DNA of 64,000 nt from Verminephrobacter eiseniae EF01-2 (GTDB lineage Bacteria > Pseudomonadota > Gammaproteobacteria > Burkholderiales > Burkholderiaceae_C): the NCBI RefSeq assembly GCF_000015565.1, contig NC_008786.1, forward strand, positions 4,390,501 through 4,454,500, given 5' to 3'. Positions within the stretch are counted from its first letter, which is position 1. Each line of letters begins with the position of its first letter. This document shows, piece by piece, positions 6,753 through 63,082 of this stretch. The notes under the pieces are model-generated. The model worked only from the letters and a program-made list of their open reading frames with translations, was not told where the DNA came from and did no database searches. The translations under genes were made by a program, and so were the position numbers.

Positions 6753-6901
6753 GCCGTCCACGCTGCGGCGCGTCAGCCCTGCGTCCCCGAGGGCGGCCGT
6801 CGCCGCCAGCGCCATCAGATCGAGGGAGCTTTTGCCCTCATGACGCCCGAAGGATGTCAGCCCCACGCCGGTGATCCAGGACACTGCTTGCTCCTTTTTC
6901 T

Positions 6902-15455: not shown

Positions 15456-15535
15456 GCGCGGACCTCGGCCCGCGATTGTGCACCGGCCCCTTGGCGTGGC
15501 GGCGGCCTGGCGCTTGAAAAAAATACCGGCGCCCG

Positions 15536-15593
15536 AGGGTGGAAAAAGCAACGGCACCCGAAGGTGGAAAAAGCAACGGCACCCGAAGGTGCC
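15536..15593 (-). terminator. Tandem rho-independent terminators downstream of tctA
   Basis: On the minus strand directly after tctA there is a perfect 6-bp stem with a TTCG loop (GGCACC-TTCG-GGTGCC, 15578-15593), followed by GTTGCTTTTT. The module then repeats at ~26-bp spacing in degenerate form: CCACCTTCGGGTGCCGTTGC with TTTTT, then CACCCTCGGGCGCC followed by GGTATTTTTTT. Each has a stem-loop and a U-tract; the first is the strongest. Confidence 0.7.
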
Positions 15594-26854: not shown

Positions 26855-27843
26855 GTCCAACTGCGCAATTGCAGGCCCCGGCAGCACAGCAGCAGCCCGC
26901 AGCAAACCAGCGCCGCGCCAAAGAAATGGCGGCTGTCATCCTTGCGCGGCACGCGCTCCATGAACGTCAGCGGCAGGTTTTGCTGGCGCCCGACGGCGGC
27001 GATGGCGGCGGCCATGGCACTGGCGTCCTCGGCCTCGTAGGCGCGATAGGGCGTGCCCAAGCCCTGGAAGAAACGGTGCAGCGCGATCTCCTGCGCCGAC
27101 CCGTCGTCCGGGGCCTCGGTGTGCAGGCTCGGACTGTTGCCGGTGCGCAGGTAAATCCAGTACAGCGCGATGCGGTTGCGGGCCAGGCCGGTCTCGATAC
27201 GCTTGCGCGTGCCGGCATCGAGCTGCGCGCCGCCGTCCGACACCAGCATGATGATGCGGCTGCCGGAATAGGGGCGGCCGTCGAATTCCCCGATCGCGGC
27301 CAGCATGGCCCGGCCGATGTCGGTGTTCATCAGCCCCCGGCCGATGCCGGTGGCCGCAATGCCGGCCAGGATGGCCTGCTTGCGCTCGGTGAACGGCAGC
27401 ACGCGCAACGGGCTGGTGCTGAACATCACGAAGGCGTAGCGGTCGTCGGGCCGCTGCTCGACGAAGCGCATGAGCAGTTCGCGCGCGGCATCGGCCTTGG
27501 TATTGCCCTGCGTGCGCAGCGCGGCTTGCTCGCCCTGGGCCACGATGGCCGAATTCATGCTGCCGCTGCGGTCCAGCAATATCAGTATCTCCATGCCATG
27601 GCCGGTGCGCGCCAGTTGCGTTTGCGCACGCCCGGGGCCGGCCAGGCCGACGATGATGCCGGCCAGCGCAAGCACGGCAAGGCCGCGCCACGACAGGCCG
27701 AGGGCGCGGCCGATGCGCTGCGGCGGCAGCCATGCGGCATGGGCAAATGGCAGCGTGTCGCCGCGCCGGCGCAGCAACGGCAGCAGGGCCAGCGGCAACA
27801 AGGCCAACACCCAGGGATGAACGAAGTCGAAGGCAGGCGTCAT
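26851..27843 (-). CDS. mxaC: VWA-domain protein, MxaC-like
   Basis: A 330-residue BatA-like membrane protein. Two N-terminal hydrophobic segments (VLALLPLALLPLL and GLAVLALAGIIVGLAG) precede a periplasmic VWA domain with a complete MIDAS, ILLDRSGSMNS, plus RYAFVMFSTSPLR and MNTDIGRAML. A C-terminal hydrophobic segment (FFGAALVCCGLLLCC) follows. It starts at ATG 27843 overlapping mxaA, and its stop overlaps mxaK. The position fits MxaC, a component of the methanol dehydrogenase calcium-insertion system. Confidence 0.72.
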   Translation of the reverse strand: MTPAFDFVHPWVLALLPLALLPLLRRRGDTLPFAHAAWLPPQRIGRALGLSWRGLAVLALAGIIVGLAGPGRAQTQLARTGHGMEILILLDRSGSMNSAIVAQGEQAALRTQGNTKADAARELLMRFVEQRPDDRYAFVMFSTSPLRVLPFTERKQAILAGIAATGIGRGLMNTDIGRAMLAAIGEFDGRPYSGSRIIMLVSDGGAQLDAGTRKRIETGLARNRIALYWIYLRTGNSPSLHTEAPDDGSAQEIALHRFFQGLGTPYRAYEAEDASAMAAAIAAVGRQQNLPLTFMERVPRKDDSRHFFGAALVCCGLLLCCRGLQLRSWT

Positions 27844-28925
27844 GACCGGGCCTGTTTCTCCGCGCGATAGAGCGCACGGCAGAACGCGCGCAACGGAAAC
27901 GGTGCGCCGGCGGGCTGGTCCGAAAAAAACCGCTGGTCCGAGCAGGCGTAGAAATGCTGGAGTTGCGCGTGCAGCGGTTGCAGGTGCGGCGCCCGCGCCA
28001 GCAGCCCGGGCAGCGCCGGGGCGCGCAGCACCGTCGCGGCGGTCTCGTTGAGCGCCTGGTGCAGGCACAGCCAGGCCTCGCTCTGGTCCGGGTCGAGCTG
28101 CCGCAGCCGGCGCCAGGCGCGCGCAAATGGCAGGCGCCGGGATTCGCGCCGGTGGCGCCACGCCCACCAGCCCATCCAGGCGGCCAAGGTGCCCGCAAGC
28201 GCGAGCAGCCACCGTTGCAGACGCCGCGCGATCGGCGCGCTGGGCGCCACGCTTGCGGGCCGGTCAGGGCGGATGTCGAGCAAGCCGCCTTTGCCCAGCA
28301 CCGTCTGCGGCGTCAGCGGGCCGACGCTGATCAACTGCGCGTCGGTCTCGAGCGCCGGGCCTGCGCTCATCGGCAGCGACAAGGCCGGCAGCGCGATCGC
28401 GGTCAGGGTTTGCGGCGCGTTGACGATCTGGTAGCTCACGAGCAGCCATTGGCGGCCTTCGGCATCGGTCTCCCACTGGAACGGGCGCCGTTCCAGCCAG
28501 CCGCTGATGCGTTCTGCGCGTGGCAGCGCGGCGGTTTCGAGCCGGCGGCCATCGGCGGGCAGCAGCAGCCGCTGTGTGACCAGGTCGCCCAACTGGTAGC
28601 CAAAGGCACGGGGCGGCTGCACGATCGGTCCGCCCACGCGGACGCCGCCGGTGGTGCCGGTGGCGCCGCTCCCATTGGTCTGCGCCCGTGCCGGGCACGG
28701 CAGCATCACGGCCAACGTTGCGCAAGCGACCGCGCCAGCCAGACGCACAAATCGTTGCCGGCGCCGCCTGACTGGAGCACCTTCGGGCGGCCGGGCGGCG
28801 AAGGATGGAGCACCTTCGCCTCCGGCTACGGTATGAGCGCCTTCGGGCGGCCGGGCAGCGAAGGATGGAGCACCTTCGCCTTCGGCTACGGTATGAGCGC
28901 CTTCGGGCGGCCGGGCGGCGCTCAT
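27840..28925 (-). CDS. mxaA: MxaA-like protein with an N-terminal 60-bp coding-repeat array
   Basis: A 361-residue protein. Residues 1-50 are two and a half copies of a 20-residue repeat (ARPPEGAHTVAEGEGAPSFA). The real protein seems to begin after them with a signal peptide, VRRRRQRFVRLAGAVACATL, ending PARAQ. A periplasmic domain follows, then a transmembrane helix near LLALAGTLAAWMGWWAWRH and a cytoplasmic tail, matching MxaA. The array is stop-free and lies immediately after the start codon that overlaps mxaS. An N-terminal extension of ~50 residues before a signal peptide could impair export, and the mature start could be internal. Confidence 0.68.
   Translation of the reverse strand: MSAARPPEGAHTVAEGEGAPSFAARPPEGAHTVAGGEGAPSFAARPPEGAPVRRRRQRFVRLAGAVACATLAVMLPCPARAQTNGSGATGTTGGVRVGGPIVQPPRAFGYQLGDLVTQRLLLPADGRRLETAALPRAERISGWLERRPFQWETDAEGRQWLLVSYQIVNAPQTLTAIALPALSLPMSAGPALETDAQLISVGPLTPQTVLGKGGLLDIRPDRPASVAPSAPIARRLQRWLLALAGTLAAWMGWWAWRHRRESRRLPFARAWRRLRQLDPDQSEAWLCLHQALNETAATVLRAPALPGLLARAPHLQPLHAQLQHFYACSDQRFFSDQPAGAPFPLRAFCRALYRAEKQARS
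28775..28925 (-). repeat. 60-bp coding-repeat array at the mxaA start (2.5 units)
   Basis: Two full 60-bp units (28775-28834 and 28835-28894) and a half unit (28895-28925) read ARPPEGAHTVAEGEGAPSFA on the minus strand. The DNA core GAGCRCCTTCGGGCGGCCG is shared with the arrays at 42135 and 57026, in unrelated genes. The last five codons of the unit differ from the other arrays (APSFA instead of IPVSx or TPVxT). Confidence 0.9.
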
Positions 28926-40864: not shown

Positions 40865-40906
40865 GAACGGGTGGGCTAATGGACTGAACGGGTGGGCTAA
40901 TGGATC
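40865..40906 (-). repeat. 21-bp tandem duplication across the end of the upstream permease gene
   Basis: Two adjacent 21-bp copies of GAACGGGTGGGCTAATGGA plus two bases (40865-40885 and 40886-40906). The second copy contains the stop codon of the permease at 40897, so the stop region itself has been duplicated. Confidence 0.8.
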
Positions 40907-42480
40907 GGTTGCTCCTTGCCGATGCGGCGGTACACACCATACAGCAGCAGCGTGGCGAGCAGCAGCAGGGCACTCAATGCACAGGCCATGCCCCAGTTGA
41001 CATCCACATTCGTATAACGGGCGATGTAGTAGCTCAGCATCTGGTCGTCGGCCCCGCCGAGCAGCGCCGGGGTGATGTAGTAGCCCAGGGCCAGGATGAA
41101 CACCAGCAGCGCCCCGGCGCCGATTCCCGGATAGGTCTGCGGCACGTAGACGCGCAAGAAGGCGGCCCAGGGCGGACTGCCCAGCGACACCGCTGCGCGC
41201 AGGTAGCTCGGCGGCACGTTCTTCATCACGCTGTACAGCGGCAAGATCATGAAGGGCAGCAGGATATGCACCATCGCAATCACCACCCCGGTGCGGTTGA
41301 ACAGCAGCGCCAGCGGTTCGGCCACCAGGCCCAGGCCGATCAAGGCGCGGTTGACCAAGCCTTCGGACTGCAACAGCACGATCCAGGCGGCCACGCGCAC
41401 CAGCACCGAGGTCCAGAACGGCACCAGCACCAGGATCATCAGCACATTGGCCGCGCGCGCCGGCAGCGCGGCCAGCCACCAGGCCAGCGGGTAGCCCAGC
41501 AGCAGGCAGCACAGCGTGACCACCAGGCTGATCTGGAAGGTGCGCAGCAGAATGCCGACAAACGCGCGCTGGTCTGCGGGCATGCGCTCGATCCGGCCCT
41601 GCGCATCGCGCTGCAGGTCCAGCGCGGCCAGCAGGTAGTCGGGCGTCCAGCGCGCGCCATTCTTGGCGATCGCGCGCCACAGCGGGGCCTGGCCCCAGCG
41701 CGGGTCGGCCTGCAGCAGTCGCTGCCGGATGGCCTCGTCGGAGCCGGCAAAAGGCCGGCTGCGGTAGGCGCCCATCACCATCGAGCGCGCACCCGGCACT
41801 TCGGAGTTCAGGCGCCGCGCCAGCGCGCCGGCGTCCGCACCGTCGGGCAGATCGGCCAGGTCGCGCACCAGCGCTGCATAGGCGGCGGCCGGGGGCGCGT
41901 CGCGCCGGTCCCAGCCATCGAGCGCACGTATGGTACCGGGCAAGGCCCGGGCCACCTCGGGGTTTTCCACGGCGCGCAGCAGCAGCGCGGCAATGGGCAG
42001 CAGCAGCGTGAGCAGCAGGAACAGCAGCAGCGGCAACGTCAGGCTGAACGCCCGCCATTGGCGCCGCCGCTGCGCGCGCGCCAGGGCTTGGCGCAATGCG
42101 CCGGGGGCGCTGCCGTCCGCTGCGCCCACCGGAGCACCTTCGGGCGGCCGTGCAGCGCTCACCGGGATACCTTCGCCTTCGGCTGCGGTGTGAGCGCCTT
42201 CGGGCGGCCGTGCGGCGCTCACCGGGATACCTTCGCCTTCGGCTGCGGTGTGAGCACCTTCGGGCGGCCGTGCGCCGCTCACCGGGATACCTTCGCCTCC
42301 GGCTGCGGTGTGAGCGCCTTCGGGCGGCCGTGCAGCGCTCACCGGGATACCTTCGCCTTCGGCTGCGGTGTGAGCGCCTTCGGGCGGCCGTGCGCCGCTC
42401 ACCGGGATACCTTCGCCTTCGGCTGCGGTGTGAGCGCCTTCGGGCGGCCGTGCGCCGCTCACGCCAAGTCGTTCCTGCAT
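40897..42480 (-). CDS. Polyamine-type ABC transporter permease (PotB-like) with an N-terminal 60-bp coding-repeat array
   Basis: A 527-residue permease. Residues ~10-118 are five and a half copies of a 20-residue repeat (ARPPEGAHTAAEGEGIPVSx). The normal protein begins after it: ALARAQRRRQWRAFSLTLPL then a hydrophobic helix. A periplasmic loop of ~150 residues follows, then LLRTFQISLVVTLCCLLLGY, LVPFWTSVLVRVAAWIVLLQ and the coupling loop AAVSLGSPPWAAFLRVYVPQ. ATG 42480 is the only upstream ATG, but GTG codons inside each repeat could also start translation. It follows the receptor gene by 29 bp. Confidence 0.88.
   Translation of the reverse strand: MQERLGVSGARPPEGAHTAAEGEGIPVSGARPPEGAHTAAEGEGIPVSAARPPEGAHTAAGGEGIPVSGARPPEGAHTAAEGEGIPVSAARPPEGAHTAAEGEGIPVSAARPPEGAPVGAADGSAPGALRQALARAQRRRQWRAFSLTLPLLLFLLLTLLLPIAALLLRAVENPEVARALPGTIRALDGWDRRDAPPAAAYAALVRDLADLPDGADAGALARRLNSEVPGARSMVMGAYRSRPFAGSDEAIRQRLLQADPRWGQAPLWRAIAKNGARWTPDYLLAALDLQRDAQGRIERMPADQRAFVGILLRTFQISLVVTLCCLLLGYPLAWWLAALPARAANVLMILVLVPFWTSVLVRVAAWIVLLQSEGLVNRALIGLGLVAEPLALLFNRTGVVIAMVHILLPFMILPLYSVMKNVPPSYLRAAVSLGSPPWAAFLRVYVPQTYPGIGAGALLVFILALGYYITPALLGGADDQMLSYYIARYTNVDVNWGMACALSALLLLATLLLYGVYRRIGKEQPIH
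42135..42463 (-). repeat. 60-bp coding-repeat array in the permease gene (5.5 units)
   Basis: Five 60-bp units (42135, 42195, 42255, 42315, 42375) and a partial sixth (42435-42463) are nearly identical. In the coding direction each contains GGCCGCCCGAAGGCGCTCAC, ACCGCAGCCGAAGGCGAAGG, then TATCCCG and an in-frame GTG. Differences are single substitutions, for example Glu/Gly (GEG/GGEG) and Ala/Gly at the unit end, so expansion is recent. Confidence 0.95.
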
Positions 42481-52488: not shown

Positions 52489-53091
52489 ATGACCCCGCAA
52501 CTGCCCATTGACGTGGACGCCGACACCGGCGTCTGGACCACCGACGGTCTGCCGATGATTTATGTGCCACGGCATTTCTTCGTCAACAACCATGTCGAGA
52601 CCGAAGCCGTCGTCGGCCGGGCGCTCTATGCCCCGGCGCTGTACAAGGCCGGGCACCGCTCGGCGTATTTCTGGTGCCAGCAGGAAGCCGCCACCCACGG
52701 CCTGGCGGGCATGGCGGTCTGCGAGCATTACCTCAAACGCCTGTCGCAACGCGGCTGGGGCCGGTTCTCGCTGCTCAGCGCCGACGCCGGCGCGGGCCGC
52801 GCCCGGGTCAGGGTCGAGCATTCGGTCTTCGTGCTGGCGCAAGGCATTGCCGGCGTTCCGGTGCGGCACGACAAGCTGTGCTATGCCTTCGCGGGCTGGT
52901 TCTCGGGCGCGATGGACTGGGTGCTGGAGTCCGGCGGCTCGGCCGTGCGCACCACCTGCGCCGAGGATCGATGCGCCGCGCAAGCGCCTGCCGCAGACGC
53001 TGCCGCAGCAGACGCCGCGCCGCGCGATTGCATCTTCGACGTGCACCCACTGGAAGAAGGGCCGCGCCATGCAGTACCCGCATCTGTTTGA
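52489..53091 (+). CDS. DUF5943-family protein (V4R-like) of the dimethylglycine locus
   Basis: A 200-residue protein conserved directly before dgcA in pseudomonads. It has GVWTTDGLPMIYVPRHFFVN, YKAGHRSAYFWCQQEAATHG, VEHSVFVLAQG and YAFAGWFSGAMDWVLESGGS. ATG 52489 is used. The last ~25 residues overlap dgcA. Its role in dimethylglycine catabolism is unknown. An Ala-rich insert (APAADAAAADAAP) sits before the conserved C-terminus. Confidence 0.8.
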   Translation: MTPQLPIDVDADTGVWTTDGLPMIYVPRHFFVNNHVETEAVVGRALYAPALYKAGHRSAYFWCQQEAATHGLAGMAVCEHYLKRLSQRGWGRFSLLSADAGAGRARVRVEHSVFVLAQGIAGVPVRHDKLCYAFAGWFSGAMDWVLESGGSAVRTTCAEDRCAAQAPAADAAAADAAPRDCIFDVHPLEEGPRHAVPASV

Positions 53092-55129
53092 GCCGATCCG
53101 CCTGAACCAGGTGCTGCTGCGCAACCGCATCGTCAGCACCGCCCATGCCGAGGTCTATGGCCAAGGCGGCGCGCCGAGCGCGCGCTACATCCGCTACTAC
53201 GAAGAAAAGGCCCGGGGCGGCCTGGGCCTGGCGATTTGCGGCGGCTCCAGCCCGGTATCGCGCGACAGCCCCTGGTCGTGGTGGAATTCCATCAATCTGG
53301 CGCGCAACCCGGTGATCGAGCCGCTGGCCCGGCTGGCCGACACCATGCACCGGCATGGCGCCAAACTGATGATACAAGCCACCCATATGGGGCGGCGCAA
53401 CGCCTGGAACGGCTTTGACTGGCCGCACCTGGTCAGCCCCTCGGGCATCCGCGAGCCGGTGCACCGGGGCAACGCCAAAACCATAGAGATCGAGGACATC
53501 CGGCGCATCGTGGCCGACTTCGGCCGGGCCGCCAGGCGCGTCAAGGACGCCGGGCTCGACGGCATCGAGATCTCCGCCGCGCACCAGCATCTGATCGACC
53601 AGTTCTGGAGCCCGCGCGTCAACCACCGCAGCGACGAGTACGGCGGCAGCCTGGCCAACCGCCTGCGCTTCGGCATCGAGGTGCTGCAAGCCGTGCGCGA
53701 GCAGGTCGGCGCCGACTTTTGCGTCGGCCTGCGCGTCTGCGGCGATGAGTTCCACGAAGATGGCATCAACCACGAGATGGCCAAAGAAATCGCCCAGGCC
53801 ATGTCCGAAAGCGGCCTGATCGATTTCCTGAGCGTGGCCGGCTCCGGCGCCGACACCCACAACACGCTGGCCAACTGCATGCCGCCGATGGCCCTGCCGC
53901 CCGAGCCTTTCGTGCATCTGGCCGCCGGCATCAAGTCGGTGTCCCGGGTGCCGGTGATGCACGCGCAAGGCATCCGCGACCCGGGGCAGGCCGAGCGCAT
54001 TCTGGCCGCCGGCATGGTCGATCTGGTGGGCATGACGCGCGCGCAGATCGCCGACCCGCATATGGTCGGCAAAATCCGCGACGGCCGCCTGGACCAAATC
54101 AAGCAATGCGTCGGCGCCAATTACTGTATCGACCGGCAATACCAGGGCCTGGACGTGCTGTGCCTGCAAAACGCCGCCACCGGCCGTGAAGAAATCATGC
54201 CGCACCTGATCGGCAAGAGCGCCGGGCGCCGCCGCAAGGTGGTGGTGGTCGGCGCCGGGCCGGCGGGCCTGGAAGCCGCGCGCGTGGCGCGCGAGCGCGG
54301 GCACGAGGTGCTGCTGTTCGAGCAAGCGCCGGTGGTCGGCGGTCAGGTGAATCTGGCCGCCAAGCCGCCGCAGCGCGAGCAGATGGCCGGCATCATCCGC
54401 TGGTTCGACATGGAAACCCGGCGCCTGGGCGTGCAGCGGCGCCTGGGCGTGGCGGCCGACCAGGCGCTGATCCTGGCCGAAGCGCCCGACATCGTGGTGC
54501 TGGCCACCGGCGGCCTGCCGAACATGGCGCAGACGCCGGCCTGGGGCGCCGCGCAGGGGCTGTGCGTGAGCAGTTGGGACATCCTGTCGGGCGCCGTCGC
54601 GCCCGGCGACAACGTGCTGGTGTACGACAGCATCAGCGCCCATGCCGGCACCGGCGTGGCCGACTTCATTGCCGCGCGCGGCAAGCAGGTGGAGATCGTG
54701 ACGCCCGACGTGAAAGTCGCCGACGACGTGGGCGGCACCACCTTCCCGATCTTCTACCGCCAGCTCTACGCCCACGGCGTGATCCTGACGCCGAACCACT
54801 GGCTGCACCAGATCTACCGTGAAGGCGAGCAGCTGATCGCGGTGCTGAAAAACGAATACACCGAGGCGCTGCAAGAACGCGCGGTCGACCAGGTGGTGGT
54901 GGAAAACGGCATCCGGCCGAACGACAGCCTGTACTGGCAGCTCAAGCCGCTATCGCTCAACCAGGGGCAGACCGACATCGACGCGCTGTATGACGCGCTG
55001 CCGCAACCGGATTTGCAGCGGCCCACCGGCGACGGCCAGTTCCTGCTCTACCGCATCGGCGACTGCGTCTCGATGCACGACATCCACGGCGCCATCTACG
55101 ACGCGCTGCGGCTGTGCAAGGATTTTTGA
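53069..55129 (+). CDS. dgcA: Dimethylglycine catabolism flavoprotein DgcA
   Basis: A 686-residue old-yellow-enzyme-type oxidoreductase that demethylates dimethylglycine to sarcosine. The N-terminal FMN TIM barrel (YPHLFEPIRLNQVLLRNRIV, MIQATHMGRRNAWNGFDWPH, EISAAHQHLIDQFWSPRVNH) is followed by a 4Fe-4S site (CVGANYC... LCLQNAATGRE). An NAD/FAD domain follows with VVVVGAGPAGLEAARVARER. ATG 53069 has GAAGAAGG upstream and overlaps the previous gene by 23 bp. Electrons pass to DgcB and Etf. Confidence 0.93.
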   Translation: MQYPHLFEPIRLNQVLLRNRIVSTAHAEVYGQGGAPSARYIRYYEEKARGGLGLAICGGSSPVSRDSPWSWWNSINLARNPVIEPLARLADTMHRHGAKLMIQATHMGRRNAWNGFDWPHLVSPSGIREPVHRGNAKTIEIEDIRRIVADFGRAARRVKDAGLDGIEISAAHQHLIDQFWSPRVNHRSDEYGGSLANRLRFGIEVLQAVREQVGADFCVGLRVCGDEFHEDGINHEMAKEIAQAMSESGLIDFLSVAGSGADTHNTLANCMPPMALPPEPFVHLAAGIKSVSRVPVMHAQGIRDPGQAERILAAGMVDLVGMTRAQIADPHMVGKIRDGRLDQIKQCVGANYCIDRQYQGLDVLCLQNAATGREEIMPHLIGKSAGRRRKVVVVGAGPAGLEAARVARERGHEVLLFEQAPVVGGQVNLAAKPPQREQMAGIIRWFDMETRRLGVQRRLGVAADQALILAEAPDIVVLATGGLPNMAQTPAWGAAQGLCVSSWDILSGAVAPGDNVLVYDSISAHAGTGVADFIAARGKQVEIVTPDVKVADDVGGTTFPIFYRQLYAHGVILTPNHWLHQIYREGEQLIAVLKNEYTEALQERAVDQVVVENGIRPNDSLYWQLKPLSLNQGQTDIDALYDALPQPDLQRPTGDGQFLLYRIGDCVSMHDIHGAIYDALRLCKDF

Positions 55130-55130
55130 A

Positions 55131-57029
55131 ATGCTGCCGCAACTGGTGCGCATCCTGTTCTGGCTGGCGCTGCTGACCTTGGCCTGGGGCCTGGCGCGGC
55201 GCGCGCTGCTCTGGCGCACGGGGCGCGGCGCCGATGTCGATCTGCGCGGCTTGCTGCAAATTCCAAAACGCTATCTGGTCGACCTGCACGACGTGGTGGC
55301 GCGCGAGCCGCTGGTCGCGCGGGCCCATGTCGGCGCCGCCGGCGGCGCCGTGCTGGCCTTGGCGCTGGTGGCGTTGAACTACGGCCTGGGCCTGTACTGG
55401 CGCAGCCTGGACGCGCTGCTGCTGCTGGCCGGCCTGGTGCTGCTGGCCGGCGCCGCCACCATGGCCTGGCGCCGGCGCAACCCGCCCGCGCGCCTGTCCC
55501 GGGGCGCATGGCAGCGCCTGCCCCACAGCCTGCTGCTGTTCGCGCTGGCCGTGGCGCTGACCGGCGCCGTGGCCTGCACCGGCACCGCGCTGGCCCCCTG
55601 GCTGGCCGCGCTGATCAGCCTGGCGTTTGCCGCCGGCGCCGCCGAACTGGCGCTGGGCATCGGCCTCGGCGGACCGATGAAACATGCCGTGGCCGGTCTG
55701 CTGCACCTGGGCCTGCACCCCCGGCCCGAGCGCTTTGGCGAGCGGCGCTTTGCCACGGCCCTGCGGCCCCTGCGCCTGAATGCCGACGACCTGCGCGCCG
55801 ACGATCTGGGGGTGGGCAAACCGGCCGATTTCGCCTGGAACCGGCTGCTGTCCTTCGATGCCTGCGTGCAATGCGGCAAATGCGAAGCCGCTTGCCCGGC
55901 CTTCGCCGCAGGCCAGCCGTTGAACCCGAAGAAATTGGTGCAGGACCTGGTCGCCGGCCTGAGCGCCGGCAGCGACGCCGGCTACGCCGGCAGCCCCCAC
56001 CCCGGCCGGCCGATCGGCGCGCACCAGGGGGCACCCGGGCAGCCCATCGTGCCGGGCCTGATCGACAGCGACACGCTGTGGTCCTGCACCACCTGCCGCG
56101 CCTGCGTGCAGGAATGCCCGATGCTGATCGAGCATGTGGACGCGATCGTGGACATGCGCCGCCATCTGACGCTGGTCACGGGCCTGGTGCCGAACCAGGG
56201 CCGGCAGGCGCTGGAACAACTGCGCGACACCGATACCGTGGGCGGCTTCCCGCTGGCTGCGCGCCACCACTGGGCCGTCGACCTGAATGTGCCGGTGCTG
56301 GCGCCCGGCGCGCAGACCGACTGGCTGGTGCTGGTCGGCGAAGGCGGCTTTGACATGCGCTACCAGCGCAGCCTGCGGGCGCTGGTCAAGACGCTGCAAA
56401 AAGCCGGGCTGGACATCGCGCTGCTGGGCGCGGCCGAGACCGATGGCGGCGATCTGGCGCGGCGCCTGGGCGACGAGGCCGGCTTTCAGCGCCTGGCCGC
56501 GCAACTCATCGCCACCCTCGGTGCGCGCCGGTTTGCGCATATCGTGACCCCCGACCCGCATCTGTTTCATCTGCTGAAGAACGAATACCCGGCGCTGGGC
56601 GCAGATTTCGATGTCTGGCACCACAGCCAACTGCTGGCCGATCTGCTGGCCCGGGGCCGGTTGCAGCCCACGCGCGCCGCCAGCCACGAGGCCGTGACCT
56701 ACCACGACCCCTGTTACCTGGGCCGCTACGGCGGCGAAGTGCAGGCCCCGCGCGCGCTGCTCCAGGGCATTGGCATCGAGGTGCGCGAGATGCAACGCAA
56801 CCGCGCGCAGGGCCGCTGCTGCGGCGGCGGCGGCGGCGCGCCGTTCACCGACATCCCCGGCAGCACCCGCATCCCGGACATCCGCATCGCGGACGCAAAA
56901 AGCACAGGCGCCGGCGTGGTGGCCGTCGCCTGCCCGAACTGCACGACCATGCTCGAAGGCGTGGTCGGCCCGCGCCCGCAGGTGCTGGACATCGCCGAAC
57001 TGCTGGCGCAGGCACTGGAATTGGCATGA
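55131..57029 (+). CDS. dgcB: Dimethylglycine catabolism iron-sulfur membrane protein DgcB
   Basis: A 632-residue membrane electron carrier. Several N-terminal hydrophobic segments (about residues 1-190) are followed by two 4Fe-4S ferredoxin motifs (CVQCGKCEAACPAF and CTTCRACVQECP) and CCG-type domains (TYHDPCYLGRYGG, GRCCGGGGGAPF, VACPNCTTMLEG). The layout resembles heterodisulfide-reductase D/E-like proteins linking flavoenzymes to the respiratory chain. It starts one base after dgcA and overlaps etfA (ATGA). Confidence 0.92.
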   Translation: MLPQLVRILFWLALLTLAWGLARRALLWRTGRGADVDLRGLLQIPKRYLVDLHDVVAREPLVARAHVGAAGGAVLALALVALNYGLGLYWRSLDALLLLAGLVLLAGAATMAWRRRNPPARLSRGAWQRLPHSLLLFALAVALTGAVACTGTALAPWLAALISLAFAAGAAELALGIGLGGPMKHAVAGLLHLGLHPRPERFGERRFATALRPLRLNADDLRADDLGVGKPADFAWNRLLSFDACVQCGKCEAACPAFAAGQPLNPKKLVQDLVAGLSAGSDAGYAGSPHPGRPIGAHQGAPGQPIVPGLIDSDTLWSCTTCRACVQECPMLIEHVDAIVDMRRHLTLVTGLVPNQGRQALEQLRDTDTVGGFPLAARHHWAVDLNVPVLAPGAQTDWLVLVGEGGFDMRYQRSLRALVKTLQKAGLDIALLGAAETDGGDLARRLGDEAGFQRLAAQLIATLGARRFAHIVTPDPHLFHLLKNEYPALGADFDVWHHSQLLADLLARGRLQPTRAASHEAVTYHDPCYLGRYGGEVQAPRALLQGIGIEVREMQRNRAQGRCCGGGGGAPFTDIPGSTRIPDIRIADAKSTGAGVVAVACPNCTTMLEGVVGPRPQVLDIAELLAQALELA

Positions 57030-57265
57030 GCACCGCCCGGCCGCCCGAAGGTGCTCATACCGCAGCCGAAGGCGAAGGCACTCCAGTGACCACCGCCCGG
57101 CCGCCCGAAAGCGCTCATACCGCAGCCGAAGGCGAAGGCACTCCAGTGAGCACCGCACGGCCACCCGAAAGCGCTCATGCCGCAGCCGAAGGCGGAGGCA
57201 CTCCAATGACCACCGCCCGGCCACCCGAAAGCGCCCATGCCGCAGCCGAAGGCGGAGGCACTCCA
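57026..57265 (+). repeat. 60-bp coding-repeat array at the etfA start (4 units)
   Basis: Four exact-length 60-bp units at 57026, 57086, 57146 and 57206 begin with ATG, GTG, GTG and ATG; the sequence after the fourth again starts GTG (57266). Each ends GAAGGCACTCCA or GGAGGCACTCCA, a Shine-Dalgarno-like core 7 bp before the next start codon. The units share the CGGCCRCCCGAA core with the arrays at 28775 and 42135. Confidence 0.95.
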
Positions 57266-58414
57266 GTGAGCACCACCCCGGTACCCCGCATCGACCCGCG
57301 CCGCCCGGCAATCACCACGGCGCAGGGGCTGCGCCGCATCGTGCCCGGCCACCGCGCCGCTGCGCCGCCGACCGCCCGGCAGGCCGGCCCGGGCGCACCG
57401 CTTGCCAGTCCGGGCGCCCATCCGGGCGCCAAACCGCTGCGCAGCGCCGGCCCGTTCAACCGCAGCACGCTGGTCGTGACCCATGCCGAGCGCGGCACAT
57501 TGACCGATGCGGCGCGCCAGGCGCTGGCGGCAGCGGCCATCCTGGCCAGCGCCGAGACCCAGGTCGTGCTGGCCGTGCTGGGCCCCTGCCGCGATGGCAG
57601 CGACGCCGTGGCGGCGCTCGGCGCCGATCGCCTGCTGGCATTGGACAGCTTCGACGCCAGCCGCTACCAACCCGGCGCCTGCGTGCAATGGCTGCAAGCG
57701 CTGCATGCGGCCTGGGCCCCTGCGCATTGGCTGTTCGCCGACAGCGGGGCCGACGGCGAACTGGGCCGGCGGTTTGCACTGCACACCGGGCTGGGGCTCG
57801 CCTGCGGCGTGGTGGAACTGGGCGCCGAGAGCCTGCGCATACGCGCCAGCGCCAGCGACGACTGGCTGTGCCCGCATGCCCCGGTGATGCTGCTGGCCCC
57901 GGGCCTGGCCAGCACCCGGCTGCCGTTTGTCGGCCAGGGGCTGCGCGCCGCCGCGCCAGCGCTGCCGGCCCTGCCCGAGCCGGGCATCGAAGACCTGGGC
58001 GTGCAGCCGGGCGACCCGCAGAGCTTGGCGCTGGAAGAGGCCGATCTGATCCTGGCCGCCGGCAATGGGGTCCGGCACGGCGATTTGCCGCTGCTGCATG
58101 CGCTGGCGCAGGAGATCGGCGCCAGCGTCGGGGCCTCGCGCGTTGCGGTCGACGCCGGGCACTTTGCCCGCCACCAGCAAATCGGCGCCACCGGCAAGGC
58201 CGTTTCGGCATCGGCCTATCTGGCGCTGGGCATCTCGGGCGCGGTGCAGCATCTGCAAGGCATCAAGGACTGCCGCCATGTGATCGCGGTGAACCTGGAC
58301 GCATCGGCCCCGATCACCGGCCGCGCCCATCTGAGCGTGATCGAAGACAGCGCGGCGCTGATGCAAGCGCTGATCGAACTGGTGCGCAAGGAAAGGGACA
58401 AGGCCGGCGCATGA
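57026..58414 (+). CDS. etfA: Electron transfer flavoprotein alpha subunit with an N-terminal 60-bp coding-repeat array
   Basis: A 462-residue EtfA. Residues 1-80 are four copies of a 20-residue repeat (ARPPEGAHTAAEGEGTPVTT and variants). A Pro-rich linker, PRIDPRRPAITTAQGLRRIV, then leads to the Etf fold (RSTLVVTHAERGTLTDAARQ). The C-terminal FAD site is GASRVAVDAGHFARHQQIGA then TGKAVSASAYLALGISGAVQ and HVIAVNLDASAPI. ATG 57026 overlaps dgcB, but in-frame GTG 57086, GTG 57146, ATG 57206 and GTG 57266 each lie 7 bp after AAGG or GGAGG, so shorter forms are plausible. Confidence 0.9.
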   Translation: MSTARPPEGAHTAAEGEGTPVTTARPPESAHTAAEGEGTPVSTARPPESAHAAAEGGGTPMTTARPPESAHAAAEGGGTPVSTTPVPRIDPRRPAITTAQGLRRIVPGHRAAAPPTARQAGPGAPLASPGAHPGAKPLRSAGPFNRSTLVVTHAERGTLTDAARQALAAAAILASAETQVVLAVLGPCRDGSDAVAALGADRLLALDSFDASRYQPGACVQWLQALHAAWAPAHWLFADSGADGELGRRFALHTGLGLACGVVELGAESLRIRASASDDWLCPHAPVMLLAPGLASTRLPFVGQGLRAAAPALPALPEPGIEDLGVQPGDPQSLALEEADLILAAGNGVRHGDLPLLHALAQEIGASVGASRVAVDAGHFARHQQIGATGKAVSASAYLALGISGAVQHLQGIKDCRHVIAVNLDASAPITGRAHLSVIEDSAALMQALIELVRKERDKAGA

Positions 58415-58458
58415 ACCACCCGATGAGCCACCCGATGAATCACCCCATGCGCCACCCC
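58411..58458 (+). repeat. 12-bp tandem repeat at the etfB start (4 units, each with ATG)
   Basis: ATGAACCACCCG, ATGAGCCACCCG, ATGAATCACCCC and ATGCGCCACCCC follow one another in frame. Any of the four ATGs could be the initiator. Confidence 0.9.
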
Positions 58459-59214
58459 GTCACCGTGCTGGTGGCCCCGCGCAGCCACCCCGTCAGCCAG
58501 CGCCCGACCCGCTGCCCGGCCGATGCCCGGGCGGTCACGCTGGCCTTGGGCCTGTCGCTGCCGGTGCGCCTGCTGACTGCGGGGGCCATGCCCGAGCAGG
58601 TCGCCCGCGACTACCTGGCCTTGGGTGCGGGCCAGATCGACATCCTGCCCTGCGCCGACGATTCGCTGCTGCTGCCCGCCTTGCTGCCCGCGCTGCGCGC
58701 GGCGGACTGGGTGCTGACCGGCACCCGCTCGGCCGTCGATCACGGCAGCGGCGTCTTGCCCCATGCGCTGGCCGCCGCGCTGCAACGGCCGCTGGTGACC
58801 GAGGTGTTGGCGCTCCAGATCGAAGGCGCGTCCGGCATCGTCACCCAGGCCCTGCCCCGGGGCGCGCGGCGCCGTTTGCGCGTGCAGGCCCCGGCCCTGC
58901 TGGCCGTCAGCGCAGCCGCAGCGCCGGCCTTGCGCCATTCGCTGGCCGACGCCATGGCCGGCCGAATCCGGCATGGCGCTGGCGCTGGCGACACCGCCCC
59001 GGCGCCACTGGGCCCGCCCTGCGGCCAGCGCGTTCCGGCAAACCAGCGGCGCCAGGTGCTGCAGGCCACGATCGTGCAAAGCGGCCACGCCCGGATGCTG
59101 GGGGCCATCGCCCCGGCAACCACCGGCGGCACCATCGTCCGCGACGGCACTGCCCATACCAAGGCGCAGGCAGTGCTCGATTACCTGCGCCGCCACTCAC
59201 TTGTGTCCTTCTGA
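58411..59214 (+). CDS. etfB: Electron transfer flavoprotein beta subunit
   Basis: A 267-residue EtfB-fold protein paired with EtfA to accept electrons from DgcA. It shows DARAVTLALGLSLPVRLLTA, ADWVLTGTRSAVDHGSGVLP, VTEVLALQIEGASGI and LPRGARRRLRVQAPALLAVS. It starts at ATG 58411 overlapping etfA (ATGA). The first residues are a 12-bp tandem repeat (MNHP-MSHP-MNHP-MRHP), each unit starting with ATG. The motif text is more diverged than in housekeeping EtfB, as expected for the dgc-linked type. Confidence 0.85.
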   Translation: MNHPMSHPMNHPMRHPVTVLVAPRSHPVSQRPTRCPADARAVTLALGLSLPVRLLTAGAMPEQVARDYLALGAGQIDILPCADDSLLLPALLPALRAADWVLTGTRSAVDHGSGVLPHALAAALQRPLVTEVLALQIEGASGIVTQALPRGARRRLRVQAPALLAVSAAAAPALRHSLADAMAGRIRHGAGAGDTAPAPLGPPCGQRVPANQRRQVLQATIVQSGHARMLGAIAPATTGGTIVRDGTAHTKAQAVLDYLRRHSLVSF

Positions 59215-59230
59215 AAGGACCGAAAGGACC
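59213..59230 (+). promoter_or_regulatory. Duplicated ribosome-binding site before gbcA
   Basis: GAAAGGACC occurs twice in direct tandem (59213-59221 and 59222-59230), six bases before ATG 59237. The downstream copy has the proper spacing. Confidence 0.7.
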
Positions 59231-59236
59231 TTCGCC

Positions 59237-60502
59237 ATGACGAGCCCATGCCAATCCCTGTCAGCCCCCGGAGAACTGGTGCGCGAACTGCTGGCCCGGC
59301 GCCGCCCCGGTTACAGCCTGGAGGCCCCGTTCTACCTGAGCGAGGCGCTGTACCAAGTCGACATGGAGCATATCTTCGGCCAGCACTGGATCTTCGTTGC
59401 CGTCGAGCCGCAAATTGCCGATGCCGGGGACTACATCACGGTCGACCTGGGCGTCGATTCGATCCTGATCGTGCGCGACGACGAAATGCAAATCCGGGCC
59501 TTCCACAACGTCTGCCGCCATCGCGGCACGCGCCTGTGCGCCAGCCGGCAAGGCATGGTGGGCAACATCGTCTGCCCCTACCACCAATGGACCTACGACC
59601 TGGCGGGCCAGCTGATCCACGCCAAGCACATGAGCGACGACTTCGACCTGCGCAGCCATGGCCTCAAGCCCGTGCATGTGCGCAGCCTGTCGGGGCTGAT
59701 CTTCATCTGCCTGGCCGAGCAGGCACCGCAGGACTTCGAGCAGATGGCCGCCGAAATGACGCCCTACATCGCGCCGCACCAACTGTCGCAGTGCAAGGTG
59801 GCGGCCCAGGTCGATCTGGTGGAGAACTGCAACTGGAAACTGACGATGGAAAACAACCGGGAGTGCTACCACTGCGTGGGCAACCACCCCGAACTGACCA
59901 TCTCGCTGTACGAGTACGGCTTTGGCTACAAGCCCGATGCGCTGAACATCGGGCGGCTGCAACGCTTCGAGGAAATCCTGGCCGCCAACCACAAACGCTG
60001 GGAAGGCATGGGCCTGCCATCGGCCGAGATCGACACCCTGGAGCGGCGCGTCACCGGTTTTCGCACGCAGCGCCTGCCGATCGATCGCAGCGGGCAGTCG
60101 CAAACCATGAGCACCGAAGTCGCATCCCGCAAGCTGCTGGCCGACTTCGTCGAGCCGGCCCTCGGCGGCCTGTCGTTCTGGACCCAGCCCAACTCCTGGC
60201 ACCACTTCATGAGCGACCACACCGTCAACTTCACCGTGCTGCCGATCTCGGCCACCAAGACGCTGGTGCGCAGCACCTGGTGCGTGCACAAGGACGCGAT
60301 CGAGGGCGTGGACTACAGCGTGGAGAACCTGACCTCGGTCTGGAACGCGACCAACGAACAAGACCGCCGCCTGGTCGAGGAGTCGCAGATCGGCATCGCC
60401 AGTGGCGCCTACCAACCCGGCCCGTACTCACCGTTCACCGAAGGCTTGGTCGAGAAGTTTTGCAACTGGTATGTGAACCGCCTGCGCGCCCTGGTCCGCT
60501 GA
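59237..60502 (+). CDS. gbcA: Glycine betaine monooxygenase, oxygenase subunit
   Basis: A 421-residue Rieske non-heme iron oxygenase that demethylates glycine betaine to dimethylglycine with release of formaldehyde. The Rieske cluster motif is CRHRGTRLC... CPYHQWTYDLAG. The catalytic iron region reads LVENCNWKLTMENNRECYHC with a following VGNHPEL. WTQPNSWHHFMSDHTVNF is conserved in GbcA. It pairs with gbcB 37 bp downstream. Confidence 0.95.
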   Translation: MTSPCQSLSAPGELVRELLARRRPGYSLEAPFYLSEALYQVDMEHIFGQHWIFVAVEPQIADAGDYITVDLGVDSILIVRDDEMQIRAFHNVCRHRGTRLCASRQGMVGNIVCPYHQWTYDLAGQLIHAKHMSDDFDLRSHGLKPVHVRSLSGLIFICLAEQAPQDFEQMAAEMTPYIAPHQLSQCKVAAQVDLVENCNWKLTMENNRECYHCVGNHPELTISLYEYGFGYKPDALNIGRLQRFEEILAANHKRWEGMGLPSAEIDTLERRVTGFRTQRLPIDRSGQSQTMSTEVASRKLLADFVEPALGGLSFWTQPNSWHHFMSDHTVNFTVLPISATKTLVRSTWCVHKDAIEGVDYSVENLTSVWNATNEQDRRLVEESQIGIASGAYQPGPYSPFTEGLVEKFCNWYVNRLRALVR

Positions 60503-60539
60503 ACGCCCGCCCAACACCCGCTCCTGCCGCGAGCCACCC

Positions 60540-61691
60540 ATGCCCACCGTTGCTTTGCCTGGTTCACCGGGTTCACCGGACCTTCCCGATTTCGCGGCCC
60601 CGGCCCCGCCGCCCTGGTCCGCCGAGCAAGACCACAGCCTGCGCTGCGTGCATATCCGGCAAGAGACCCATGACGTCAAAACCTTCGTGCTGGCACCGCG
60701 CGCGCCGCGCAGCTTTCGCTACCTGCCGGGCCAATTCATCACGCTGGAGCTGGACATCGCGGGCCGCAGGATCAACCGCTGCTACACCCTGTCATCGACC
60801 CCGACCCGCCCCGACTTGGTCAGCATCACGGTCAAACGGGTGCCGGGCGGCCCGGTGTCGAACTGGCTGCACGAGCAGTTGCGCGTGGGCATGGCGCTGG
60901 ACGTGCTGGGCCCCGGCGGCGCGTTCAGTTGTTTGGCAGCGCCAGCGCAGCGCTACCTGTTTCTATCGGGCGGCAGCGGCATCACGCCGCTGATGTCGAT
61001 GACGCGGGCGCTGCACGACCTGGGCAGCGACGCCGACATCGTGTTCGTGCACTGCGCGCGCAGCCCCGCCGATGTGCTGTTTTCCGACGAGTTGGGCCTG
61101 ATGGCGCGCCACATGCCGCATCTGCGGCTGGCCACGGTGTGCGAGCAACAAGCGCCCGGCAGCGCCTATGCCGGCCATCTGGGGCGCCTGGATGCGGCGC
61201 TGCTCGCGCGCATCGCCCCGGACTTGCAGCAGCGCGACATCTATACCTGCGGGCCGGCGCCGTTCATGGCCGCGATCCATGCGTATCTGTCCGGCGCGGG
61301 CTTTCCGATGGCCCGCTACCGGCAAGAGAGCTTCGCGTTCGAATCGTTGGCGCAGCCCGTGGCCACACCGATGCCAGCCGCCGGCGCCAGCACCGCGCCA
61401 GCCCACGCCAGCCCCCGAACCGGCGCCCCCGCCTACCAGGTGCGCTTGCAAAAAACCGGCCACCAATTCGATTGCCCAGCCGAGCAAACCCTGCTGCAGG
61501 CGGCCATCGCGGCCGGACTGCGGCTGCCTTTTTCCTGCACCAGCGGCGCCTGCGGCACCTGCAAAAGCAAAAAAATCGCGGGCCAGGTCCGCATCGAACA
61601 TGCCGGCGGCATCCGGCAACGAGAAATCGATCAGGGCTGGATCCTGCCCTGCTGCAGCAAGCCTTTGTCTGACATCGTGCTGGACCGATAG
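60540..61691 (+). CDS. gbcB: Glycine betaine monooxygenase, reductase subunit
   Basis: A 383-residue ferredoxin reductase that passes electrons from NAD(P)H to GbcA. The FAD domain has RRINRCYTLSSTPTRPDLVS, the NAD domain LFLSGGSGITPLMSMTRAL and DIYTCGPAPFMAAIHAYLSG. The C-terminal plant-type 2Fe-2S ferredoxin has FSCTSGACGTCKSKKIAG and the final cysteine in ILPCCSKPL. An Ala/Pro-rich linker (about 280-300) joins the last domain. It starts at ATG 60540. Confidence 0.95.
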   Translation: MPTVALPGSPGSPDLPDFAAPAPPPWSAEQDHSLRCVHIRQETHDVKTFVLAPRAPRSFRYLPGQFITLELDIAGRRINRCYTLSSTPTRPDLVSITVKRVPGGPVSNWLHEQLRVGMALDVLGPGGAFSCLAAPAQRYLFLSGGSGITPLMSMTRALHDLGSDADIVFVHCARSPADVLFSDELGLMARHMPHLRLATVCEQQAPGSAYAGHLGRLDAALLARIAPDLQQRDIYTCGPAPFMAAIHAYLSGAGFPMARYRQESFAFESLAQPVATPMPAAGASTAPAHASPRTGAPAYQVRLQKTGHQFDCPAEQTLLQAAIAAGLRLPFSCTSGACGTCKSKKIAGQVRIEHAGGIRQREIDQGWILPCCSKPLSDIVLDR

Positions 61692-62044
61692 CGCAGCGAT
61701 GGCATCTCGTTTACAGTGTTTACGGTTCATCGGGAGGTAAGAACCATTGTCGATGGCTCGATGGCCATCCCGCAAATGGCCATGGCGCACACAATGAAAT
61801 CGACGCGGTTCGTGTCAGGGCCAGGTGCCAACCCCGGCGCAACCTGCAGCTGCCGCGAGGACTTGCAACGCCACCTTGGCACGAAAGGTGCTGGAAAAGC
61901 GCTCATTTCATGCAATGATTTGCGGGACAGCGCGCCCCAGCGCCCAGACAGCCTCGAAAACCAGCGCCGCGCCGAATGGCGGCACATCGTCCAACCAAAA
62001 AGCACGGCCGCCCCGATGGGCCGTCGAAATCCATGGAGCCCCCG
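61692..62044 (+). promoter_or_regulatory. Intergenic region upstream of proVW
   Basis: About 350 bp without a supportable gene, between gbcB and proV on the same strand. It is less GC-rich in places (for example TCATTTCATGCAATGATTTG near 61904-61923), so a separate proV promoter is likely. I cannot define its boxes. The ribosome site GGAG lies 8 bp before ATG 62045. Confidence 0.4.
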
Positions 62045-63082
62045 ATGTCAAGCCCGAAAATCAGCGTCAAAAATCTCTACAAGGTCTTTGGCAGCAACCC
62101 CTCGCAAGCCATCCGACTGCTCGACGAAGGGCGCAGCAAAGACGAGATTTTTGCCCAGACCGGGCAGGTGGTGGGCATCAACAAGGTCAGCTTCGACGTG
62201 CTGGCCGGCGAAATTTATGTGCTGATGGGCTTGTCAGGCTCGGGCAAATCGACCCTGATCCGGCTGATCAACCGACTGGTCGAACCGTCCTGCGGTTCGA
62301 TCAACATCGACGGGCTGGACATCGCCGCGCTGTCGCAGGCCGAACTGGTCAAGTGGCGCCGCAAACGGGTGGCGATGGTGTTCCAGTCGTTTGCGCTGAT
62401 GCCGCACCGCAATGTGCTGTCCAACACCGCCCTCGGGCTGGAGATGGCCGGCACGCCGCGCCAGCAGCGCGAAGCCCGCGCCATGGAGGTGCTGGCCCAG
62501 GTCGGCCTGCAAACCTACGCCGCCAAATACCCGGCGCAACTGTCCGGCGGCATGCAGCAGCGCGTCGGGCTGGCCCGGGCTTTGGCGGTGGACCCCGACA
62601 TCCTGCTGATGGACGAGGCCTTCTCGGCGCTCGATCCGCTCAAGCGGGTCGAAATGCAAAGCCTGCTGCTCGACTTGCAGCGCGAGCAGCAGCGCACCGT
62701 GCTGTTCGTCTCGCACGACCTGGAGGAGGCGCTGCGCATAGGCAACCGCATCGCCATCATGGAAGGCGGCAACCTGGTGCAGGAAGGCACGGCCCACCAG
62801 ATCATCACCGAGCCGGCCAACGCCTACGTGCGCAAATTCTTCGAAGGCGTGGACACCTCGCGCTATCTGACGGCGGCAGACCTGCTCGACCCCCGGCTCA
62901 ACGGCCACTCCTGGGACGGCGGTGCGCGCCTGTCCTGGTCGACGCCGTTGCCCGAAGCGATGAAGATCGTGCTCGACAGGGACCAGCCGATCGGCGTCTT
63001 CGATGCCAGCGACCGCTTGCTCGGCTGCATCTCCGCGCGCAGCCTGCTCGACAGAATGTCCCGGGAGGCACGCCATGTCTGA
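62045..63082 (+). CDS. proV: Glycine betaine/proline ABC transporter ATPase
   Basis: A 345-residue ATPase of the ProU/OpuA type. The family-specific opening VKNLYKVFGSNPSQAIRLLD and RSKDEIFAQTGQVVGINKVS is present. Walker A is MGLSGSGKSTLIRLINRL, Q-loop VAMVFQSFALMPHRNV, signature QLSGGMQQRVGLARALAVDP, Walker B ILLMDEAFSALDPLKR. A single short CBS-like segment ends the protein (DQPIGVFDASDRLLGCISAR). It overlaps proW by eight bases. Confidence 0.95.
   Translation: MSSPKISVKNLYKVFGSNPSQAIRLLDEGRSKDEIFAQTGQVVGINKVSFDVLAGEIYVLMGLSGSGKSTLIRLINRLVEPSCGSINIDGLDIAALSQAELVKWRRKRVAMVFQSFALMPHRNVLSNTALGLEMAGTPRQQREARAMEVLAQVGLQTYAAKYPAQLSGGMQQRVGLARALAVDPDILLMDEAFSALDPLKRVEMQSLLLDLQREQQRTVLFVSHDLEEALRIGNRIAIMEGGNLVQEGTAHQIITEPANAYVRKFFEGVDTSRYLTAADLLDPRLNGHSWDGGARLSWSTPLPEAMKIVLDRDQPIGVFDASDRLLGCISARSLLDRMSREARHV

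Follow-up and report, generated by a model that had tools for sequence, protein, structure and literature searches.

What is a tandem array of units that each carry a start codon doing at the front of etfA in Verminephrobacter eiseniae EF01-2, and is it a feature of that gene? The array is located in a 64,000-nucleotide stretch of DNA (RefSeq assembly GCF_000015565.1, contig NC_008786.1, positions 4,390,501 to 4,454,500), which is referred to in its entirety as the window; coordinates are those of the window unless genome positions are specified. The array consists of four 60-bp units between dgcB and etfA, and it belongs to a family of repeats that is dispersed through the genome. It is interpreted as a dispersed operon-junction coupler that resembles the mycobacterial interspersed repetitive units (MIRUs) and whose stop-less form would here extend the N-termini of proteins, and a probability of about 75% is assigned to this interpretation.

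The array at the dgcB-etfA junction

Units 1 to 4 open with ATG, GTG, GTG, and ATG and are followed by a GTG at 57266, and all five starts (57026, 57086, 57146, 57206, and 57266) share one reading frame. Units 1 and 2 end with GAAGG-CACTCCA and units 3 and 4 end with GGAGG-CACTCCA, with 7 nt to the next start in each case. Tandem Repeats Finder (TRF) run on the window reports a repeat at 57027-57278 with a period of 60, 4.2 copies, 92% matches, no indels, and a score of 406. The features of the junction and the evidence for each are the following:

57026..57265, plus strand: tandem array of four 60-bp units, open in the etfA frame (sequence, TRF)
57026-57085, 57086-57145, 57146-57205, and 57206-57265, plus strand: units 1, 2, 3, and 4 (sequence)
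57027..57029, plus strand: TGA stop of the upstream gene (open reading frame, ORF, 54990-57029), which forms an ATGA overlap with ATG 57026 (sequence, Pfam)
57026..57058, plus strand: 33-nt palindrome of unit 1, with the start codon in the 5' arm ATGAGCACC and a 3' arm GGTGCTCAT (minimum free energy (MFE) stem, covariation)
57065..57073, plus strand: possible second hairpin, GCC-GAA-GGC, just before the Shine-Dalgarno (SD)-like sequence (sequence; absent from the MFE structure)
57075..57085, plus strand: ribosome-binding-like site of unit 1, AAGG at 57075-57078 and a 7-nt spacer before GTG 57086 (sequence)
57266..58414, plus strand: etfA from its probable native start, GTG 57266 (orthologue comparison, Pfam)

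The initial annotation of this DNA had described four exact 60-bp units with in-frame starts and AAGG or GGAGG located 7 nt ahead of them, and it had regarded each unit as a translation-initiation module. The first description is confirmed by the sequence and TRF, and each unit does have the sequence of such a module. ORF 54990-57029 features DUF3483, Fer4, and CCG domains (Pfam), and we take it to be DgcB-like. The order in the window is the end of dgcB, which is kept (DIAELLAQALELA and the stop), then ATGAGCACC, which opens the array, and GTGAGCACCACC after the array, and the Pfam ETF and ETF_alpha domains are located downstream of the array within ORF 57026-58414.

Relatives feature empty sites at this junction. 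A search of 399 genomes at E below 1e-100 gave nine relatives whose EtfA is 60-75% identical, and one match in this set (L263) carries an internal TGA. The TGA of the dgcB-like gene overlaps the etfA ATG in 9/9 relatives (e.g., GGAGGTCGCATGAGCACT), and no element core is found up to 500 nt upstream of the RIDPRRP motif in any of them. The EtfA protein of another V. eiseniae genome (P0002) starts at the residue that matches 57266, with the absence of the repeat there reflecting the annotated start only. Seven further EtfA orthologues, from Variovorax, V. aporrectodeae, Hydrogenophaga, and others, are without the repeat and have starts 1-11 residues farther from the motif. The extension had been called alien to the Etf family. 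This agrees with its absence from these eight EtfA relatives and the nine DNA-level relatives and does not extend to one 98% identical EtfA (P0001), which carries a variant with four repeats made up of different units. The native etfA start is likely 57266 by orthologue comparison, and the array would therefore be an insertion at the old start.

A repeat peptide such as the ARPPEGAHTAAEGEG series would be carried by MutY and an ABC permease as well as EtfA. The native site of mutY is of this kind, too, with its ATG overlapping the TGA of an upstream ORF in 11 of the 13 relatives compared; in this set, one junction contains Ns (L111), one upstream stop is located 13 nt before the ATG (L113), and two members look identical there (L121 and L122). 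The ORF upstream of mutY is ~490 codons long in the relatives compared with 233 in V. eiseniae, and the upstream neighbour in V. eiseniae may differ from that of the relatives.

The surrounding operon (52562-63082) encodes an ABC ATPase, a Rieske oxygenase and its reductase, EtfA, EtfB, and DgcA-like and DgcB-like proteins. It is presumably involved in glycine-betaine/dimethylglycine catabolism, and some of the gene names are putative. The end of the etfA ORF overlaps the etfB-like start at 58411 as ATGA. At 58411-58457 the etfB-like gene also begins with a start-codon-containing repeat, which has a 12-bp unit like ATGAACCACCCG in ~3.9 copies (MNHPMSHPMNHPMRHP).

Dispersal in V. eiseniae and in other Burkholderiales

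The searched genome (5,597,943 bases in two contigs) contains 184 matches to an 18-base core at up to 2 mismatches, compared with 1 match for the reversed pattern. These matches and the TRF score of 406 without indels reject a chance origin of the repeat. Grouping at up to 4 mismatches gave 74 clusters; 5 of them, judged to be chance matches, are excluded from all subsequent counts (genome positions 4440133, 4444511, and 4453982, which are located in the window, 4761320, and 3273037). At least 69 arrays remain, with 164 units read from the window and 61 stretches around matches; this is a lower bound, and further places, e.g., 2342734, 3797688, 3936076, and 4529881, are located outside the set. 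The array had been presented as a feature of EtfA, a view that does not survive this count, since at least 69 such arrays are present and the genes concerned are unrelated. Among 399 genomes of the bacterial family, 70 have one or more matches to a 25-base core when 3 mismatches are allowed, with 177 matches in the genome of the window and 30 or fewer in all others.

The first unit opens with ATG (41) or GTG (19), located four codons ahead of the CGGCCGCCCGAA core, in 60 of 69 arrays, and of the 41 multi-unit arrays, 40 have a unit spacing of exactly 60. In 36 of the 57 arrays that have a TGA in the first RTGAGC (R is A or G), this TGA terminates an upstream ORF of at least 150 codons, compared with 39 of the 369 RTGAGC sites found elsewhere in these stretches. 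This placement, mostly at stop/start overlaps, points to coupling that is kept on insertion and not to tuning of EtfA. Downstream, 51 of 69 arrays continue open in frame for at least 75 codons past the array. An open frame alone is weak evidence in GC-rich DNA, in which frame +2 is open nearly as often, and only the Pfam matches carry weight. A Pfam domain is found in the array's own frame in 40 of these 51 arrays, and the 75-codon cut used to call an array fused admits chance open frames (11/51 have no Pfam domain). The partners include ABC transporter parts, MutY, dihydrouridine synthase, O6-methylguanine methyltransferase, glutamine amidotransferase, ETF, short-chain dehydrogenases, a molybdopterin dehydrogenase subunit, and others.

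The junction codon is GTG in 26 of the 51 fused arrays, and only 38 of 95 later units open with ATG or GTG, the rest having TCC, TCG, GCG, and similar codons. At one array, L009 (genome about 55732-56263, minus strand), the later units mostly have GTCCGC in place of GTGAGC, and its partner gene is not recognised. Units are more identical within arrays (0.922, 160 pairs) than between arrays (0.856, 9293 pairs), which fits local amplification. These identities and the codon-position variability discussed below were determined from 138 of 164 units, with L009 and units less than 75% identical to the consensus excluded.

Two more arrays are located on the minus strand of the window:

28775..28925, minus strand: second array, ~2.4 units, in frame at the 5' end of ORF 27843-28925 (TRF, sequence)
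42132..42462, minus strand: third array, ~5.5 units, in frame near the 5' end of an ABC permease gene (BPD_transp_1) (TRF, Pfam)

The initial annotation overlooked both of these, the dozens elsewhere in the genome, and the overlap of ATG 57026 with the upstream TGA. At the second array, an upstream ORF stops at the TGA of ATGAGC, and no Pfam hit was obtained for ORF 27843-28925. The permease gene (40900-42462) has an in-frame ATG at 42480, 6 codons upstream of its array. Three related proteins hold ~2.5-3 units compared with 5.5 and begin with MQERLG ahead of the repeat, and 2 of 3 more distant permease orthologues have an MQ start. From this comparison, the permease array probably sits 6 codons inside its gene. 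The module had been termed mobile or self-expanding, which is a fair description in that it is dispersed and its copy number varies among related proteins. A 25-bp repeat in three copies at 15515-15589 (consensus CGGCACCCGAAGGTGGAAAAAGCAA) has a CCCGAAGGTG core in common with the 60-bp family.

A scan of GTDB genomes with an ATGAGC-led core found at least 80 loci (120 stretches), with several loci from one genome. The pattern requires ATGAGC, and the start codon in this set is therefore not independent evidence. All counts for other genera, here and below, are among the matches listed. These include loci from Variovorax, Hydrogenophaga, Ramlibacter, Aquabacterium, Xenophilus, Albitalea, Rhodoferax, Pseudorhodoferax, and Methylibium. 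ORFs of 20 or 21 codons are present at 60 of 81 sites, and the downstream link at the 81 sites is an NTGA overlap in 48, TGATG in 5, an in-frame fusion in 13, a start within 30 nt in 4, and unclear in 11. Elements of 19-22 codons are followed by an NTGA start with 90 or more open codons in 42 of 56 cases, compared with 148 of 1100 other RTG ORFs of equal length at the same loci. An upstream gene of at least 150 codons ends at the TGA of ATGAGC at 53 of 71 usable sites, compared with 33 of 245 control ATGAGC sites. Tandem copies are often 62 bp apart, which is the length of a 22-codon ORF including its stop minus the 4-nt overlap. The micro-ORF length and the overlaps indicate that the usual element of other genera links two genes by two stop/start overlaps. 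This -4 nt (NTGA) spacing is absent at EtfA and at 50 other V. eiseniae arrays, which run on in frame. The comparative evidence for the anatomy of the element and for its insertion is good at the level of sequence, and the coupler interpretation is carried by the in-frame Pfam domains, the upstream stop overlaps, and the empty sites.

Fold, proposed mechanism, and rival explanations

The whole 120-nt fold at etfA has a z-score of -1.93. Over 61 first units, A1 is found with T33 in 39, G1 with C33 in 15, and other combinations in 7, and the association of A1/T33 and G1/C33 has a Fisher p of 2.4e-9 (59 units in the 2 x 2 table). The first-unit palindrome at these 61 loci features 94.6% paired cells and 15 cells that are changed on both sides, compared with 4.7 in shuffled data (0/500) and 6 or fewer in slid versions. 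Pairs 2-5 are kept in 60 or 61 of 61 first units compared with 43 to 56 of 89 later units. In 59 micro-ORFs of other genera, stem 1 and a second stem before GGAGG are 97.7% paired with 49 both-side changes compared with 17.7 shuffled (0/500), and stem 1 of this set is free to vary at few letters only. The possible hairpin at 57065-57073 has the position of this covarying second hairpin. The covariation of the start-codon arm suggests that the fold is maintained. The ATG-CAT and GTG-CAC matching of the arms may reflect selection for the stem or the correction of palindromes by template switching. Rfam returned nothing at the gathering score in the window, and a search of 11 loci at E up to 1 gave two microRNA matches that are far below the cut-offs.

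In the proposed mechanism, a dispersed repeat that is mostly located at operon junctions would have been amplified locally to give the etfA array. One copy would be a small translational-coupling cassette with RTGAGC at its 5' end, a start that overlaps the upstream TGA, a palindrome that folds over the start codon, and a second small hairpin and SD-like sequence that lead to the start of the next gene. The hairpin would be opened by a ribosome as it terminates; this ribosome would then restart at RTGA, read the short ORF, and be delivered to the next start. Two models of coupling are proposed (PMC12548453): reinitiation that follows termination, and an upstream ribosome that unfolds a hairpin at the start codon. 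The element contains what either model requires. Insertion at an ATGA overlap would spare the upstream protein and keep the downstream gene coupled, and since the unit begins with RTGA and ends with an SD sequence and a start, both genes would be readable after insertion. The stop-free 60-bp form would add 20 residues per unit to the downstream protein and keep the frame on duplication, which would make tandem duplication frame-safe. At dgcB-etfA, EtfA would in this way gain 80 residues at its front, within which RTG codons may serve as alternative starts. A bolder version envisages a mobile bicistronic Burkholderiales cassette that inserts at ATGA overlaps, whose 3' arm is matched to the target start (ATG with CAT, GTG with CAC) through copying that takes place as it inserts or afterwards, and whose stop-less form was amplified in one earthworm symbiont, giving dozens of unrelated proteins the repeat peptide; this version is tentative and rather doubtful.

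Several observations weigh against the coupler interpretation. Nine of the 69 arrays are without ATG or GTG at the expected place, and L009, with 9 units of mostly 59-bp period, is the sole array off the 60-bp steps. At least 75 open codons are also found in frame +2 for 46 of 69 arrays and in frame +1 for 10 of 69. Eighteen of the 69 arrays are not fused and run into a stop; an ORF of 90 or more codons starts from 8 nt before to 30 nt after this stop in 11 of the 18, and the other 7 have no such start near it. Units are located inside genes at three or more loci, with one unit in frame inside a hydantoinase-like ORF (L032, genome 2049045), two units in frame inside a short-chain dehydrogenase (L048, genome 3284767), and two units before a CobW_C domain in a frame that is open for 584 codons upstream (L057, genome 4740712). 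Together with the permease array, which would be 6 codons in, these loci reveal that the placement is junction-biased and not junction-restricted, and at the three intragenic loci the element apparently contributes a peptide within the protein. No clean empty site was found for the L032 hydantoinase, whose nearest relatives outside the genome are only about 28-32% identical (long matches).

The remaining points against a coupler involve the fold, the peptide, and the means of dispersal. Pairs changed on both sides in first units number 4 compared with 2.3 shuffled (36/500 shuffles), the measure of further pair types gives 173/500, and the corresponding measures of pairs and types in other genera are not above shuffles (419/500 and 345/500); the shuffles also ignore the relatedness of the sequences. 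The predicted mean unpaired probability is 0.23 for first starts, 0.14 for later RTG, 0.22 for junction RTG, and 0.38 for control RTGAGC. First starts are less accessible than the controls (Mann-Whitney p 9.5e-5), however, an occlusion that is peculiar to the first start is rejected by later and junction starts that are equally or more closed. Variability at codon positions 1, 2, and 3 is 0.058, 0.069, and 0.092 in first units and 0.081, 0.121, and 0.099 in later units; third positions are not the main site of variation, and selection at the protein level is not seen. No mobilising enzyme was found among 40 selected genomes, in which Y1_Tnp was checked. The Y1 transposase (RAYT) was rejected as a mobiliser, as it has no association with element abundance: PF01797 is present in 35 of the 40 whether element-rich or not, a genome with 21 matches (G096) has none, and the V. 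eiseniae genome has 1.

Three other explanations account for parts of these data. The repeat may be purely selfish, a palindrome that is tolerated at overlaps where a 60-bp stop-free, start-bearing insert is harmless, with the native start in use and the array roleless. This is a real prospect, although one held at less than even odds. It is consistent with a dispersal that shows little sign of protein selection, with a unit that preserves the frame, and with an SD-like sequence that keeps the native start usable at the 26 of 51 fused arrays with a junction GTG. However, the start-arm covariation across loci and in other genera suggests a maintained fold, and among the 38 fused proteins for which a domain start was mapped, 4 offer no start codon after the array and ahead of the domain. 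Three of these four are the intragenic loci L032, L048, and L057, where the peptide is likely translated.

The initial annotation proposed a self-expanding initiation module that tunes expression; in this explanation, EtfA output would be set by copy number, with slippage gaining or losing starts. Local similarity of units (0.922 within arrays compared with 0.856 between), the variation among related permeases (about 2.5-3 compared with 5.5 units), and the different unit set of the close EtfA relative all fit such a module, however, the presence of ATG or GTG in only 38 of 95 later units indicates that the extra starts are not conserved, and this explanation is considered improbable. The least probable explanation, to which very little credence is given, is a peptide tag that acts at the protein level, such as a disordered Pro/Glu/Ala N-terminus that aids the solubility or localisation of many proteins. 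The same peptide does precede an in-frame Pfam domain in 40 ORFs, but the targets are functionally unrelated, the element of other genera is mostly a separate micro-ORF that ends before the gene, and third codon positions vary barely more than second positions in first units and less than second positions in later units.

If the coupler interpretation is correct, start-codon repeats with their own translational coupling, which are known in mycobacteria, arose or spread in Burkholderiales too, and such repeats can alter N-termini across many proteins simultaneously. The occupied and empty junctions of related genomes would be a natural series for the study of termination-reinitiation and of harmless insertion. 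For annotation, each unit would add 20 residues of ambiguity to the start of such a gene, and many ORFs of 20 codons may go unannotated.

Comparison with known systems

MIRUs were reportedly described by Supply et al. in 1997, and by analogy they appear to be the closest known system. In the passages covered of the sources cited in this section, MIRUs are described as apparently mobile, inserting at start codons, and carrying an ORF that is coupled to the gene at -4 nt (PMC12548453), and in H37Rv three 77-bp MIRUs are located between senX3 and regX3 (PMC4213456). Like these MIRUs, the Burkholderiales element is a short dispersed tandem repeat of variable copy number, and at 48 of the 81 sites in other genera it overlaps the next start as NTGA. 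It is found singly or in tandem at many loci, with insertion at a start codon or overlap at most, not all, sites. In contrast to MIRUs as described there, the V. eiseniae unit is mostly stop-less and fused in frame with the downstream gene, and it is found in a different phylum. The start codon of the Burkholderiales element is located within a covarying palindrome, and the element is likened to MIRUs by architecture, not by sequence. In-frame insertion of palindromic repeats in protein genes is a feature of the Rickettsia palindromic elements. The in-frame intragenic units at L032, L048, and L057 are similar to these, however, the V. eiseniae units are mostly located at gene starts and stop/start overlaps and carry initiation signals.

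Two repeats from the same bacterial group are also comparable. The beta-proteobacterial repeat element (BRE, Hot et al. 2011) is about 90 bp long, tandem, a variable-number tandem repeat, and mostly intergenic, with some copies that overlap ORF ends by a few bases, and it is found in Comamonadaceae and Bordetella (PMC3110155). It is similar in habit, however, V. eiseniae EF01-2 has 1 BRE copy (Table 2, PMC3110155) compared with 164 units of the 60-bp family, a comparison made by description only, and no coupling ORF is described for BRE in the passages covered (PMC3110155). A 75-bp relative of the 60-bp unit (ATGAGCCCCGCCCGGCCGCCCGAAGGGGCTCATTCCCTCTCGGAGGGAC...) is present at L094-L097, with a start codon at its 5' end and tandem copies in L096 and L097, and it could be the published BRE. 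VeiPR1 is palindromic, very abundant, makes up ~2.3% of the V. eiseniae genome, and is unique to the species (PMC3975124, citing Pinel 2009). The 60-bp family is also palindromic and from the same species, however, by comparison with that account it is too small a family, at ~0.2% of the genome (184 x 60 bp), and is present in many genera. A ~166-bp palindromic element with the ends CTAGTGTCGCGTCAC and GTGACGCGACACTAG has three copies in the window (3756-3922, 5823-5988, and 6587-6753) and may be a VeiPR1 candidate.

Synthetic boosters are short non-functional ORFs placed directly upstream of the target, either in its frame or shifted, that contain a ribosome-binding site, and they are reported to give an up to 20-fold boost (PMC13255528). 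Those boosters were engineered in E. coli, whereas the V. eiseniae element is natural and dispersed. BRE apart, no published description of the 60-bp element was recognised among the top-ranked matches in the open-access literature. By comparison with these systems, the Burkholderiales element would be a variant of the known MIRU-type start-codon repeats, with a stop-less form in V. eiseniae that would extend N-termini.

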